A stretch of DNA of 64,000 nt from Synechococcus sp. CC9616 (GTDB taxonomy: Bacteria; Cyanobacteriota; Cyanobacteriia; PCC-6307; Cyanobiaceae), in assembly GCF_000515235.1 (NCBI RefSeq), contig NZ_KI911558.1, forward strand, positions 1,897,466-1,961,465, given 5' to 3'. Below the pieces are notes generated by a model. That model saw only the letters and a list, made by a program, of their open reading frames with translations, was not told where the DNA came from and searched no databases. The first letter of the stretch is position 1. Each line of letters begins with the position of its first letter. This document shows positions 5,390-20,775 of this stretch, in pieces. A program made the position numbers and the translations under genes.

Positions 5390-6820
5390 TCAGAACAGAT
5401 CGTTATAGCTAGACGGGAAGGTGGAGACGGAGCCAGACATCTCACTCGCCACGAGCAGCGCGCCCTTGTCATCAGCCTCAGGCACGTAGTAGATACCCTC
5501 AGGTGACCATGCATTGGGTGACCAGAATGTCGCCAAATGCTTCACATCTTTGAGATCAGTGACATCAAAGACAGGAATGATGGAGCCAGCTGGCAAGCTG
5601 CCATCGGCGGTGCTGCTTGGGTCAAAGGCACGCTTAAGTCCAACCGCGACAAGGTGACGCTCGTTCTTGCCCTTTTTATTGGTCATGCTGAAGGAGACCG
5701 TGTGCTCCGGCTCGGTGCCTTTGTCGTCGCTGCGGCCATCGTCGTAATGGTTGAGACTTGCAGCAATCTCCTCAAGCATGTTGCCGGCGTGATAGAGGGT
5801 CTTCCCTTTCGCGTCGAAGATCGAGAAATCCCTGGTTCCCATCATGTAAAGATCACCAGTTTTAGGATCATTCATATCCTTCAGAGTCTTCAAACGACCT
5901 TCAGCCAAGATCGCAGAATCAAACTTAGATGCATCGCTGTATTCATCTTCTAAATCCTTAGAGCGAACTTCGTCGTAATAGAAGCCATCATCTTTGTTGG
6001 CGCCATGCTTAAGGGTAACAAATAGTTCGTCGTCATTCTCTACATCAAAGTCACCCTTGTTGCCGACTCCTCCTTGATCATAAATGTAGATAGTGGCATC
6101 TTCTTGCCAAGGATCGGCATCTGAGAAAACAGCGCCGCCTACATCATTCGTACCATAGGAGAAGGTTTTTTCTCCTTCAAAGGCATCGGTCAGTCCGTCT
6201 TCAATCAGGGCCTCGATTTCGAGGTTCACATCATCAGGACGGATTCTGCCATCTCCCTCACCGGGCGAGACATAGAGAAGCTTACCCGCCGAATTGACAT
6301 AGGAGCTGATGCCATCAGGTTGCGACAATCCAAAGAGATTCTGTTTCTCAGTCGGCGCAAAAATCTCATCCTCATTGTTGGTATCGATTGGGATACCATC
6401 AAAGCTCTTCGGCTCGAGGCCAAAAACTCGCTTGATTTTCTTTTTGGCAATATCGACCACGGCGATACCATTGTTCTCCTGGAGAGCAACAATCGCTTCG
6501 CTGTCACTTGAGGTCGCAACGTATTCAGGCTCAAGGTCAACAACGCCATAGTTCTTGTAATCACCCTTGTCCGGACCAGAGAGACGAACGCCGGCTTTTT
6601 CAAGCTTCTTGTTGGATTGATTGAACTCCAACGTCGTGACGTCAGATTTTGAGGGCTTTTTATTATCGACATCAATAATGGCAACCGAACCTTTCGGGTT
6701 GGTACCGATACCGTATTGCTTCTTTTCGATCCCGTAGAAATCAAGAGGCTGGCCTTCATTCGCCACAATCAAGGTGTTGCCATCGGGGGTAAACACCAAC
6801 TGGTCGGCCAGGTTGCCCAC
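5390..6820 (-). pseudogene. Choice-of-anchor I / atypical alkaline phosphatase-like protein, C-terminal frame
   Basis: This 476-residue frame is the main part of a secreted beta-propeller-like protein of the choice-of-anchor I family, related to atypical cyanobacterial alkaline phosphatases. Recognisable pieces are DQLVFTPDGNTLIVANEGQP, DLEPEYVATSSDSEAIVALQ, GIPIDTNNEDEIF and AWSPEGIYYVPEADDKG. The apparent GTG start (GNLADQ) has no good ribosome site. Upstream in the same frame is PVKEVATTKVV, which continues the protein encoded in the 6769-7197 frame. I read the two as one gene with a single-base frameshift near 6850. The rest of the frame is intact, so the event may be recent or a sequencing error. 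Confidence 0.7.
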
Positions 6821-7197
6821 AACCTTCGTTGTGGCGACTTCCTTGACTGGATTTTGCCACCAACAAGCTGAAAAAAGGTCACCTTTGACTCAGCTGTCTT
6901 CGGCGAGACAACAGTTGCAGCCGCAAGACCCTGGGAACTGATCGCGATATCTGTGGCATCACCTTTCAGGAAGGCTTCACCAATCACCTTTGGCTTTTTC
7001 TTGAATCCCTTGGAATAGTCGAGGACGATAACCTGACCGCCTTTTTCGTTATATTCACCGGTAATCAACCAGGCATGCTTATTAACTGGGTCGTAACTGA
7101 TTTTTTCTGCGCCACCAGGCTGAATATGGGTTTTAGCCTTTATAACCTTGCTTGAAATTTTGGCGTCACCGTTGGAATCAACGATTTTGTTGGCCAT
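6769..7197 (-). pseudogene. Choice-of-anchor I protein, N-terminal frame
   Basis: The true N-terminus starts at ATG 7197 (MANKIVDSNGDAKISSKV) and runs through beta-rich sequence (GGAEKISYDPVNKHAWLITG, VIVLDYSKGF, ATDIAISSQGLAAATVV). After about residue 116 (FFQLVGGKIQ) it turns into unrelated Arg/Trp-rich sequence, marking the frameshift into the 5390-6820 frame. There is no N-terminal signal peptide, which suggests export by a type I system. An AT-rich promoter region lies at 7198-7330. Confidence 0.65.
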
Positions 7198-7332
7198 GAG
7201 AGATGCCTATTTGATGTTAGGTGTTTAAAAATTTTGTACTTCACATGGTAAATCTGGGTTAAAAGTCAGCTAAATATTGTTTATCAACCGCGTAATGTAT
7301 TACGCATCACATTTATTCCAATCCCTAGAGAC

Positions 7333-14801: not shown

Positions 14802-16111
14802 TTAAAGAATTCCTGCGCGAAATCATCAGCTGGCTCGGCTATCTTCAACGTGGATCCGTTCTTCTTCAGATTTCTCTATTTGTTGTCGCTATTGCCCTAG
14901 AGCGACGCTTCCAAAACCGACTGCGATCAAAAATCCCCTCTGCAGCGGTTAGCCTGGTAACACCAATAATCTTGTTGATTATTGGTATAACTAGTATTGC
15001 TCTTGGCTTTCCAGGCGGCTTCCTCCGCTACCTTTCCGCCGTCTGGCTGACCTGGAAGCTTGTTAAACCTATCAAAGAAATTTTAAAGAAGCGCGCTCCC
15101 AATTTTCCAGCAGATGAAGTTGATAAATCTATTTTCAGACCAATTTTCTTGGTACTTTTACTTCTCACATTTTTCCAAATGATCGGAAGCCGTGAAGCAC
15201 TTTCAGTGATTCAAATCGGCACCATCTTTGGCGTTGTTCTCACCATCGGGAAACTATTCTCCGCTGTTGTCGTGGTCTACGCCATCTTTACTCTGGCGAG
15301 CCGTCCCGCCTCATTTCTCGCCTGGATCAGTGGAAAATTTTTCGGCATTTCAATTCAAGGTCGAAAAGCCCTGGAATTGATCCTTCGCTACTCGATGATC
15401 GGCCTCGGCATCATCGGAGTGAGTTACTACATCGGAATCAACGGAACAGCCTTGGTCGCCGTTGCCGGTGGACTTTCCGTTGGCATTGGCTTTGGCCTGA
15501 AGGAAATTATTTCCAACTTCATCAGCAGCATCTGGCTGCTGTTTGAAGGAACGGTACGTCCTGGCGAGGTGCTGATGGTGAACGGCGACCCCTGCACGGT
15601 TCGGAAACTTGGCATGCGTGCTACGCAGCTACGTCGCGGCAGGGATGGTGCCGAGTTGCTGGTTCCAAACCAGAATTTCTTCACGCAGGAAGCGGAATCC
15701 TTCACGGCGGAGGAAACCTCCAGACGCGGCAATGTAGATGTAGGCGCGGCATATCACCACGAACCCCAGCAGGTCATTGATGTTCTGGTGGACGTGGCCA
15801 AGAGCCATGAAAGAGTTTTGGAATACCCACCGCCAGCGGCATTCACAACGCAATTTGCCGACTCCTCAATCAACTACAAAGTGCTGTTCTGGGTCCGCAA
15901 TCCACTCGACGCGTTCGCCGTTGAAAGCGATCTTCGCCAGATGATCTGGGTGGCATTCGAAGAGCATGAAATCGGCATTCCATTCCCGCAGCAGCAGGTT
16001 TACCCGATGGAGTGGCCGCCCTCGAAGAACCAGACCCTGCGCATCGGATCAGCAGATCACAGCCTTCAAGCAGAACCTGCCAACGACGATTCAAGTGGAG
16101 AGACGGCGTAG
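14798..16111 (+). CDS. MscS-family mechanosensitive ion channel
   Basis: The 437-residue membrane protein has about five N-terminal helices, then the MscS pore helix and beta domain: LVAVAGGLSVGIGFGLKEII, FEGTVRPGEVLMVNGDPCTV and ELLVPNQNFFTQ. The C-terminal alpha/beta domain carries YHHEPQQVIDVLVDVAKSHE and SDLRQMIWVAFEEHEIGIPF. Such channels release solutes on hypo-osmotic shock. The coupled solute-binding lipoprotein upstream is unusual and may point to gated or ligand-modulated efflux (inference). Its 3' end overlaps the convergent oxygenase gene by about 21 bases. Confidence 0.92.
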   Translation: MIKEFLREIISWLGYLQRGSVLLQISLFVVAIALERRFQNRLRSKIPSAAVSLVTPIILLIIGITSIALGFPGGFLRYLSAVWLTWKLVKPIKEILKKRAPNFPADEVDKSIFRPIFLVLLLLTFFQMIGSREALSVIQIGTIFGVVLTIGKLFSAVVVVYAIFTLASRPASFLAWISGKFFGISIQGRKALELILRYSMIGLGIIGVSYYIGINGTALVAVAGGLSVGIGFGLKEIISNFISSIWLLFEGTVRPGEVLMVNGDPCTVRKLGMRATQLRRGRDGAELLVPNQNFFTQEAESFTAEETSRRGNVDVGAAYHHEPQQVIDVLVDVAKSHERVLEYPPPAAFTTQFADSSINYKVLFWVRNPLDAFAVESDLRQMIWVAFEEHEIGIPFPQQQVYPMEWPPSKNQTLRIGSADHSLQAEPANDDSSGETA

Positions 16112-17481: not shown

Positions 17482-18381
17482 ATGGGATGGACCGTTGCTG
17501 ACATTCCCTCCCAGGAAGGCCGCATCGCCTTGGTGACGGGAGCCAATATCGGCCTAGGGCTTGAAACAGTTCGCGCCCTGGCGATGAAAGGGGCAACCGT
17601 CTTGATGGCGTGTCGCTCGCATAGCAAAGCTGAATCAGCGCGCAGCGCCCTGCTCGAGCAAGGCCTGACGGGCCTGGACCTGATTGATCTCGACCTCGCG
17701 GATCTCGACAACGTGGGGCCTGCGGCCGAAACGGTGCAACGTCGTTACGGCCAGCTGGATCTGCTGATCAACAACGCCGGTGTGATGGCCCCGCCATACC
17801 AACGCAGCCGCCAGGGGCATGAACTCCAGTTCGGCGTGAATCACCTCGGACACATGGCGCTCACACAAGCGCTTCTACCGCTGCTGAAACAGGACGGCAG
17901 GGTGGTGACGGTGACGTCCGGTGCCCAGTATTTCGGGCGCATCCGCTGGCACGACCTCGCCTGGCAAGAGAATTACGACCGTTTCGGCGCCTACAGCCAG
18001 AGCAAACTCGCCAACGTGATGTTTGCCCTTGAACTGGATGCCCGCCTGAAGCGATCCGGTAGTGGAATCAGATCCTTGGCCGCCCACCCCGGTATGGCCC
18101 GCACCAATCTGCAACGCAGCAATCTCACCGCCGAGAGCAACCAGCTTGAGCACCTGGCGGTGAAGCTGTTTGATCCACTGCTGCAAAGCGCCTCGATGGG
18201 GGCTCTGCCGCAATTGCATGCCGCAACTGCAAGCTCGGCCGCAAGCGGTGATCACTTCGGACCGGATCGGCTGGGCGGTCTGCGGGGACACCCCACCCGC
18301 TGCCGTGTGGCACCGGCGGCACGCGATTCCAGCCAGCGGGAGCGGCTTTGGAGCGTGAGCGAAGAACTTATTCAGGCCTGA
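17482..18381 (+). CDS. Short-chain dehydrogenase/reductase
   Basis: A Rossmann-fold NAD(P) enzyme with TGANIGLG (cofactor loop), NNAGVM, a catalytic Ser in VTVTSGAQ and the YSQSK Tyr/Lys pair. At 299 residues, with the C-terminal LGGLRGHP and ERLWSVSEELI, it resembles the retinol-dehydrogenase/light-dependent protochlorophyllide reductase-like branch of SDRs common in cyanobacteria. The substrate is not predictable. It starts at ATG 17482. Confidence 0.92.
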   Translation: MGWTVADIPSQEGRIALVTGANIGLGLETVRALAMKGATVLMACRSHSKAESARSALLEQGLTGLDLIDLDLADLDNVGPAAETVQRRYGQLDLLINNAGVMAPPYQRSRQGHELQFGVNHLGHMALTQALLPLLKQDGRVVTVTSGAQYFGRIRWHDLAWQENYDRFGAYSQSKLANVMFALELDARLKRSGSGIRSLAAHPGMARTNLQRSNLTAESNQLEHLAVKLFDPLLQSASMGALPQLHAATASSAASGDHFGPDRLGGLRGHPTRCRVAPAARDSSQRERLWSVSEELIQA

Positions 18382-18388
18382 AACGGCT

Positions 18389-18907
18389 TTGGCTGAAGCG
18401 AACCAGCAGCTTCTGAAACTGGGGCCTTACGTGATGGGGCGAGTGCGCCGCGGTGTTGTCGGAGACAGCCGCTACGCCCGCCGCCTTCGCAGTGCCATCC
18501 ACGACGCAGCCCATGACCCGGATCATCGTCCCGTGCTGATCAGCGGTGAACCAGGGCTCGGCAAAGACAACCTTGCCGCCCTGATCCACTACGGCTCCGA
18601 TCAGCGCCGACAGTTGTTGTTGCGCTTCAACCACCGGGATCTTCAAGGCCCGGCTGGCGCGCTGCTCTGCGAACTGGGAGACAGCACTGTTCTGATTAAT
18701 GGGTTCGACCAGATCGATTCACCCCTGCGCCAGATGCTGATCGCGATGGCGCGTGGTGAGGTCAACACCTTTCATGGCCGGATGCTGTTCACCAGCGAAG
18801 CCAGTCAGCCTGATCTCGATGGCATCACCGTGCTGATCCGGGTCCCACCATTGCGCGTGCGGCGATCCGACCTGGGTGACTGGCTTCGCTACCACGTGCG
18901 CCTCTAG
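18389..18907 (+). pseudogene. N-terminal AAA (sigma-54-activator-like) part of a polyferredoxin gene, ended by an in-frame TAG
   Basis: From TTG 18389 the frame gives a degenerate sigma-54-interacting AAA module: GVVGDSRYARRLRSAI, P-loop VLISGEPGLGKDNLAALIHY and LLFRFNHRDL-like beta strands. The central GAFTGA loop is missing. It stops at TAG 18905-18907 after DWLRYHVRL. The same frame then continues without a break as CRELGWNQPPQLPDVVVRRL into the 18953-20362 frame, where the AAA lid (HDFPNNLQELETLV) is found. The two open frames are therefore one gene interrupted by a single amber codon, probably CAG changed to TAG. Confidence 0.75.
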
Positions 18908-18952
18908 TGCCGCGAACTCGGCTGGAACCAGCCCCCGCAACTACCAGATGTC

Positions 18953-20362
18953 GTGGTGCGTCGACTGCAGAATCACGACTTCCCCAACAATCTTCAGGAA
19001 CTCGAAACCCTGGTGGACAGGGCTCTGAGGCAAGCCCGCCAGCAACGTGGTGACCACTTACCGGTTGCCCTGCCAGAAGCCGTGTTCTGGACCGGAACGG
19101 AGCAAGGTCGTCATCGCTTCGACCTCTGGCGCTGGAAACCGCAGTGGCGCCATTGGATGAGAGCTCCAGCCCTGTGGAACAGCCTGCTCTACGGGCTGGT
19201 GAGCTGGTTGTTCATCGCCGTGAATCTTGCGCTCTGGCTTGGACCCCAAACCCGAGCGGACAACAGCGTGCTGAAGTTGTTCTGGGCCTGGTGGTGGCCC
19301 TTGATCCTGCTGACCTATCCCCTGGTGGGTCGCCTCTGGTGCGCTGTCTGCCCGTTCATGGTCTGGGGACGGTTAGCCCAGAAGCTGACACCATGGCGCC
19401 AAAGGGTTTGGCCCCATGGGGATACGGATCGCTGGGCAGCGCCCGCGCTGGCCGCTGGGTTCGCCGCGATCCTGTTGTGGGAAGAGGTCTGGAATCTGGA
19501 GGACACGGCCTGGCTGAGCAGCGCATTGCTGCTGCTGATCACCACCGGCGCCGTGATCGGATCGATGCTGTTCGAGAAGCGGTTCTGGTGTCGTTATCTG
19601 TGCCCGGTGGGTGGGATGAACGGCCTTTTCGCCAAGCTCGCCATCACCGAACTGAGAGCAGAGTCGGGAACGTGCAGCGGTAGCTGCAGCAGTTACGCCT
19701 GCTTCAAGGGCGGCCCCGCCGAGGGAGAAGGACTGGCCAGTGAAGGGTGTCCCTTGGGAAGTCACCCTGCCCAGCTCAGCGACAATCGCAACTGCGTGCT
19801 GTGCATGAGCTGCGTCCAGGCGTGTCCAAACCGGTCGGTACAACTGAGGCTGCGACCACCGGCTGCCGATCTCCAACGCAGGATGGATGCCCCTGCGGGT
19901 GAGCGGGGACTGATCCTCGTTCTTGCGGGGGGGGTCTGCCTGCATCACTGGCAACGGTTGCTGGGCTGGCTCCCTCTTGCGCCGATGTCACTGCATGAAG
20001 GGCCATTGCTCCCAAGATTGAGCTTTGCCGCCTTAGCCCTGGCCATACCGTCTGCCGCTGGAATCTGGTTCCAACGACGTTGGCTGTACGCCTGCTTGCC
20101 CCTGCTTTGGGCCCTGCTGCTGGCGCGACATCTACCCCTGGGGATGCAGGAAGCCGGCACAGTGCTGCCGGAAGGTTGGCCCCAATGGCAGGCAGACCGC
20201 CACGTGATCGCCTTCTGTCAGACGTTCGTGGTGGGAATCGGATGGATCGGAGCTGCCGTACTTCTGCGACGACTTGCGGATCTCAACCGTTGGAGCTGGC
20301 TGACTGGCACGATGATGCTGCTGATGATGGGTCTGGCCGGTCGCTGGCTAGTAGCCCTCTAA
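18953..20362 (+). CDS. Polyferredoxin (NapH/RdxA-like) membrane protein; C-terminal part of the interrupted gene
   Basis: The frame, open from 18908, encodes the AAA lid helix, then a membrane Fe-S protein with helices LYGLVSWLFIAVNLALWLG, WAWWWPLILLTYPLVGRLW, and others at about residues 165-200 and 310-460. Cys motifs are CAVCPF, CRYLCPVGG and the 4Fe-4S set CVLCMSCVQACPN. NapH/RdxA-type proteins pass electrons at the membrane; the partner here is unknown. GTG 18953 is only a formal start, because the sequence before it (18908-18952) is clearly part of the same protein. The Fur-family gene follows five bases after the stop. Confidence 0.8.
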   Translation: MVRRLQNHDFPNNLQELETLVDRALRQARQQRGDHLPVALPEAVFWTGTEQGRHRFDLWRWKPQWRHWMRAPALWNSLLYGLVSWLFIAVNLALWLGPQTRADNSVLKLFWAWWWPLILLTYPLVGRLWCAVCPFMVWGRLAQKLTPWRQRVWPHGDTDRWAAPALAAGFAAILLWEEVWNLEDTAWLSSALLLLITTGAVIGSMLFEKRFWCRYLCPVGGMNGLFAKLAITELRAESGTCSGSCSSYACFKGGPAEGEGLASEGCPLGSHPAQLSDNRNCVLCMSCVQACPNRSVQLRLRPPAADLQRRMDAPAGERGLILVLAGGVCLHHWQRLLGWLPLAPMSLHEGPLLPRLSFAALALAIPSAAGIWFQRRWLYACLPLLWALLLARHLPLGMQEAGTVLPEGWPQWQADRHVIAFCQTFVVGIGWIGAAVLLRRLADLNRWSWLTGTMMLLMMGLAGRWLVAL

Positions 20363-20367
20363 TCGTG

Positions 20368-20775
20368 ATGAACGATTCCTCCCCAAGGTTGAATGCACGC
20401 CAGAAACAACTGCTGGACGCACTGAAATCCAGCCTTGATGAGATGAGTGGCCAACAGCTGCATCGCAGTTTGATGGGAGGGCCAGGAGCCATGGGCCTGG
20501 CAACGGTGTATCGCAACCTGCGTCAGCTTCAGCAACGCGGGCTAGTGCGCTGCCGACATCTCCCCAATGGCGAAGCCTTATATGCACCGGTTGACCGTGA
20601 TCGCCACCACCTCACCTGTGTTGATTGCGGCATCACCAGACCCCTGGACCACTGCCCGATTCACAGCCTTGAAGTGCCCCCGGACGCGGGCCGCGACTTC
20701 GTTTTGCTGTTTCACACGCTTGAATTCTTCGGTGTTTGTAGCAGTTGCCGAAACCGGCAGGAGACCGCTTCATGA
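20368..20775 (+). CDS. Fur-family metalloregulator, possibly Zur
   Basis: This 135-residue winged-helix regulator has recognition helix GLATVYRNLRQLQQRGLVRC, a hinge with HHLTCVDCGITRPLDHCPIH, and a C-terminal CxxC (CSSCRNR) for a structural zinc. It would bind DNA in response to a metal, most likely Zn or Fe. Candidate Zur function rests on the metallothionein gene 3.2 kb downstream, not on a diagnostic motif. ATG 20368 is the start. Its stop overlaps the next gene's ATG (ATGA), and it follows the polyferredoxin gene closely. Confidence 0.88.
   Translation: MNDSSPRLNARQKQLLDALKSSLDEMSGQQLHRSLMGGPGAMGLATVYRNLRQLQQRGLVRCRHLPNGEALYAPVDRDRHHLTCVDCGITRPLDHCPIHSLEVPPDAGRDFVLLFHTLEFFGVCSSCRNRQETAS

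Follow-up and report, generated by a model that had tools for sequence, protein, structure and literature searches.

An in-frame amber codon in the gene for a predicted AAA+/membrane polyferredoxin protein of Synechococcus sp. CC9616: probably an early step of recurrent gene loss

The closest described counterparts of the protein encoded at this locus are the NtrC/NifA/PspF-type sigma-54 activators (bEBPs), with which it has an AAA+ core and lid in common, and the NapH/MauN membrane polyferredoxins, with which it has in common a Fer4_5 motif and membrane helices. For the interruption itself, the closest described cases are the bacterial genes analyzed by Belinky et al. (2021; PMC7918605), in which, as here, a single in-frame stop lies at a CAG/TAG column of an otherwise open frame with low dN/dS. 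According to that study, in-frame stops are widespread in bacteria, those with dN/dS below 1 are common, and most are short-lived, lasting about as long as polymorphisms within populations. The stops described there are common to at least two species, whereas the stop described here is present in one genome only.

The window, that is, the whole stretch of DNA that was analyzed, comprises 64,000 nucleotides of the genome of Synechococcus sp. CC9616 (contig NZ_KI911558.1, positions 1,897,466 to 1,961,465 of the forward strand), and all positions given below are those of the window. The genome is complete in one contig of 2,645,910 bp, and the interrupted gene is present in single copy. Gene content of the window, together with relatives in Synechococcus, Prochlorococcus and Cyanobium, is that of a marine picocyanobacterium. 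Gene order around it is fixed, running from a short-chain dehydrogenase (SDR) gene through the interrupted gene to a fur gene, and the features are as follows.

17482–18381, + strand: short-chain dehydrogenase (SDR), the upstream neighbor and left border of the slot.
18389–18904, + strand: N-terminal part, with a sigma-54-interaction-like AAA+ core and the start of the lid (172 aa, start codon TTG; PF00158 at 26.1 bits, cut-off 20.2).
18863–18916, + strand: first lid helix (residues 159–176), which holds the amber codon (AlphaFold2 model m1be185f6992b, pLDDT about 80; PF25601 AAA_lid_14 in homologs).
18905–18907, + strand: in-frame TAG, from codon alignment with homologs.
18908–20362, + strand: C-terminal part in the same frame, with the remaining lid, membrane helices and 4Fe-4S motifs, ending in TAA (Fer4_5 at 34.3 bits).
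19157–19159, + strand: in-frame ATG (Met257) at a conserved Met directly 5′ of the first long membrane helix, the sole candidate restart at a conserved Met.
19526–19639, + strand: Fer4_5 (NapH-like) 4Fe-4S motif, from the domain search.
19793–19828, + strand: second 4Fe-4S motif, CVLCMSCVQACP, with cysteines invariant in 23 homologs.
20368–20775, + strand: Fur-family regulator, the downstream neighbor and right border of the slot.

The sequence predicts a protein in which an AAA+ domain resembling that of sigma-54 activators is joined to a membrane polyferredoxin of NapH-like type. Homologs carry Sigma54_activat, AAA_lid_14 and either Fer4_5 or Fer4 domains, with a cyclic-nucleotide-binding domain in addition in a filamentous cyanobacterial homolog (L077). 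Searched against PDB sequences with hmmsearch, a profile of 23 sequences matched NifA (9qq6, at 7.9e-26 with the alignment profile), NtrC-type proteins, FleQ and PspF, and the AlphaFold2 fold model gave structural matches to NtrC1, PspF and FleQ. In contrast to the NtrC/NifA/PspF-type activators, the protein contains no GAFTGA motif and no DNA-binding domain found by Pfam, has a C-terminal membrane domain instead, and is encoded in a genome in which a whole-genome search that detected its positive controls found no sigma-54 (PF04552). The protein is therefore no typical sigma-54 activator: it has an AAA+ domain of that family, but GAFTGA and a genomic sigma-54 are both missing. Compared with NapH/MauN, the polyferredoxin part is fused to an AAA+ domain, and its best NCBIfam match, TIGR02163, scored 35.6 bits, below the cut-off of 213. 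A literature search returned nothing specific on this AAA+/ferredoxin domain architecture.

The Walker A segment (18545–18568) reads GEPGLGKD here and GEPGLEKD in the family consensus, and because of this sequence ATP binding by this branch of AAA+ proteins is uncertain. A Fur-family gene lies beside intact copies in the genus and in Synechococcus UW140, and in Prochlorococcus MIT 0701 the intact copy adjoins a ZnuA-type ABC transporter. A role of the protein as a redox regulator, which is putative, is plausible; any connection with metal or redox state is a guess based on the neighboring genes.

The first-pass annotation had described two frames in the same phase separated solely by TAG 18905–18907, and this was confirmed: the frame 18389–20362 (+) has stops only at codon 173 (the TAG) and at codon 658 (TAA 20360–20362). 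The GTG at 18953, from which the second frame had been counted, is merely the first GTG 3′ of the TAG, the frame being open already from 18908, and the start TTG at 18389 corresponds to TTG or GTG at the same place in close relatives. When the genus and 300 genomes of the family were searched, 12 members of the genus and more than 100 of the family had a single uninterrupted ORF across the site (658–870 aa in relatives), and in no relative was the locus occupied by two separate genes, one ending and one starting here. Because the ORFs of intact relatives cross the site, the two halves are not a chance match of phase, and the proposal that one gene was split by one nonsense change stands.

In an alignment of 42 homologs, none has TAG at the column of codon 173. 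Most of the genus has a Gln codon there (CAG or CAA), the closest relative (G005) has the Lys codon AAG, and outside the genus many homologs have CGN (Arg) and others CAG. With Gln codons prevailing in the genus, a single CAG-to-TAG transition is the simplest history, and the C-to-T change proposed at first pass is likely; it is not proven, as G005 has AAG and a change from AAG to TAG is also possible. The sequence after the TAG had also been read as continuing the AAA lid, in agreement with the fold model, in which codon 173 is located towards the end of the first lid helix. A product ending at this codon would, according to the model, be without two lid helices and the whole membrane part.

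The slot between the dehydrogenase and fur genes was compared in the 27 members of the genus whose dehydrogenase locus was read. It contains the intact gene in 12, the amber allele in one (G000, the strain studied), a copy with one frameshift in one (G024), decayed copies with several lesions in two (G016 and G018) and a remnant of about 70 bp in one (G003); the gene is deleted in nine, and the locus is cut by a contig end in one. On the SDR tree, at least five changes are needed for the intact state. Given this repeated loss from the slot, single-lesion copies such as the amber allele are to be expected. Outside the usual slot, G007 has another, diverged copy (L121), whose neighbors are a phosphite/phosphonate-type ABC transporter, a 2-hydroxyacid dehydrogenase and a phosphoketolase-like frame.

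Pairwise dN/dS against G005 was 0.134 before the TAG and 0.151 in codons 461–657. The G005 copy is a mosaic, in which codons about 165–460 are 84–93% identical to the G021/G022 group and the ends go with the G000 lineage, and it was therefore left out of the test of codons 174–460. On the terminal branch leading to G000, a codon likelihood in which this branch had its own free rate, with one rate assumed across sites and recombination outside codons about 165–460 of G005 ignored, gave a dN/dS of 0.114 before the TAG, of 0.047 in codons 174–460, which is not raised over the background of 0.075, and of 0.265 in codons 461–657 (p = 0.035, uncorrected; several other branches deviate as much). When the last part of the G000 branch was allowed to be neutral, codons 174–460 left room for no more than about 0.1 length units of neutral evolution; the whole branch since the divergence from G005 measures about 0.6–0.7. 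The frame 3′ of the TAG was thus under purifying selection during most of the terminal branch, and the lesion, if real, is young. Constraint after the stop fits a young lesion, an error or read-through alike and so does not separate them.

We conclude that the amber codon is probably a recent nonsense allele and an early step of ordinary recurrent gene loss, rather than a case of recoding. A fresh nonsense mutation was one of three options offered at first pass and is the best supported of them, the same slot holding both intact and variously broken copies and constraint being near normal. In the proposed history, an ancestral single gene would have encoded an AAA+ ATPase domain akin to that of sigma-54 activators together with a membrane polyferredoxin, and its AAA+ lid would recently have been hit by a single nonsense change, of which CAG to TAG is the likeliest form. 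The product would be a truncated ATPase core of 172 aa, without the lid and the membrane part, the gene would have little or no activity, and the allele may represent an early stage of the loss that is seen complete in nine other genus members.

A second broken gene was observed in the same window. This gene, of the choice-of-anchor I family (5393–7206, − strand), lacks one A of an A-run near 6855, which puts it out of frame; this stretch reads GGCAAAA here and GGCAAAAA in G005. Lesions of this type are also produced by errors of assembly. In G005 the gene is cut by a CAG-to-TAG change instead, and single nonsense changes do therefore occur in the lineage. Other, weaker interruption flags were raised in the same scan, and some of these were wrong-frame ORFs or upstream extensions, which were set aside.

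The main rival to a recent nonsense allele is a base-call or assembly error, with the strain having a sense codon and an intact gene, and we regard this as possible but rather unlikely. It would account for the lack of a second lesion in the frame and for the near-normal constraint, and the one-base homopolymer deletion in another conserved gene of the window indicates that the assembly may hold small errors. However, the amber gene and the choice-of-anchor I gene are the only two convincing interruptions among about 50 window genes compared with G005, so that small errors are infrequent; in closed genomes, erroneous substitutions occur less often than homopolymer indels; and the gene affected is one that relatives have often lost.

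Recoding or suppression of the amber, the remaining option of the first-pass annotation, is not supported. No CUA anticodon, as expected of an amber suppressor tRNA, was found among the 41 tRNA genes of the genome (RF00005; 40 anticodons read, with a model that may miss pyrrolysine tRNA), and RF1 is present (473.5 bits, cut-off 423). TAG is seldom used here, but as a normal stop: the conserved mscS gene ends in TAG (16109–16111), with TAG likewise in three relatives and TAA in others. Stop usage is strongly skewed, the window genes with ends alignable to G005 having 39 TGA, 4 TAA and 2 TAG stops, TGA ending about four fifths of the genes compared in the window. The sole tRNA-Gln (L131, G000:C1:2492774-2492845) has G-U for G-C at the anticodon-stem pair 30:40 (G30-U40) and differs from that of G005 at two positions, this pair included, while nearly all other compared tRNAs are identical. 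Suppression through a mutated tRNA-Gln was considered and dropped, as the G-U form occurs in 18 of the 29 tRNA-Gln copies of the genus (the other 11 having the other form), among them copies from species with an intact gene.

It is accordingly very improbable that a near-cognate tRNA reads the amber through at some level, with full-length protein made and the gene working. The downstream frame is still constrained, and in-frame stops with dN/dS below 1 are common in bacteria (PMC7918605), but a young mutation equally predicts the constraint signal, the TAG is found in no other genome, and the short persistence of most such stops (PMC7918605) also argues against a working read-through gene. We give as little credence to a TAG that is real, maintained and leaky, at which a near-cognate tRNA would yield a low dose of full-length protein, the stop serving as a dosage switch that precedes gene loss. 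Least probable of all is that two functional proteins now come from the locus, the ATPase core from its first part and, by a restart at GTG 18953 or at ATG 19157, a membrane ferredoxin, since, despite the position of this ATG at a conserved Met just 5′ of the first long membrane helix, neither codon is preceded by a Shine-Dalgarno-like sequence, the cut lies inside the AAA+ lid rather than at a domain border, and no relative has two genes at the locus.

With a recent nonsense allele as the probable reading, the amber itself is ordinary, and the modest value of the finding lies in the slot. Many marine picocyanobacteria can dispense with the membrane iron-sulfur/AAA+ protein encoded beside the Fur-family gene, and the locus provides, within one genus, a small natural series of gene erosion that runs from intact copies through single-lesion and multiply broken copies and a remnant to clean deletion.
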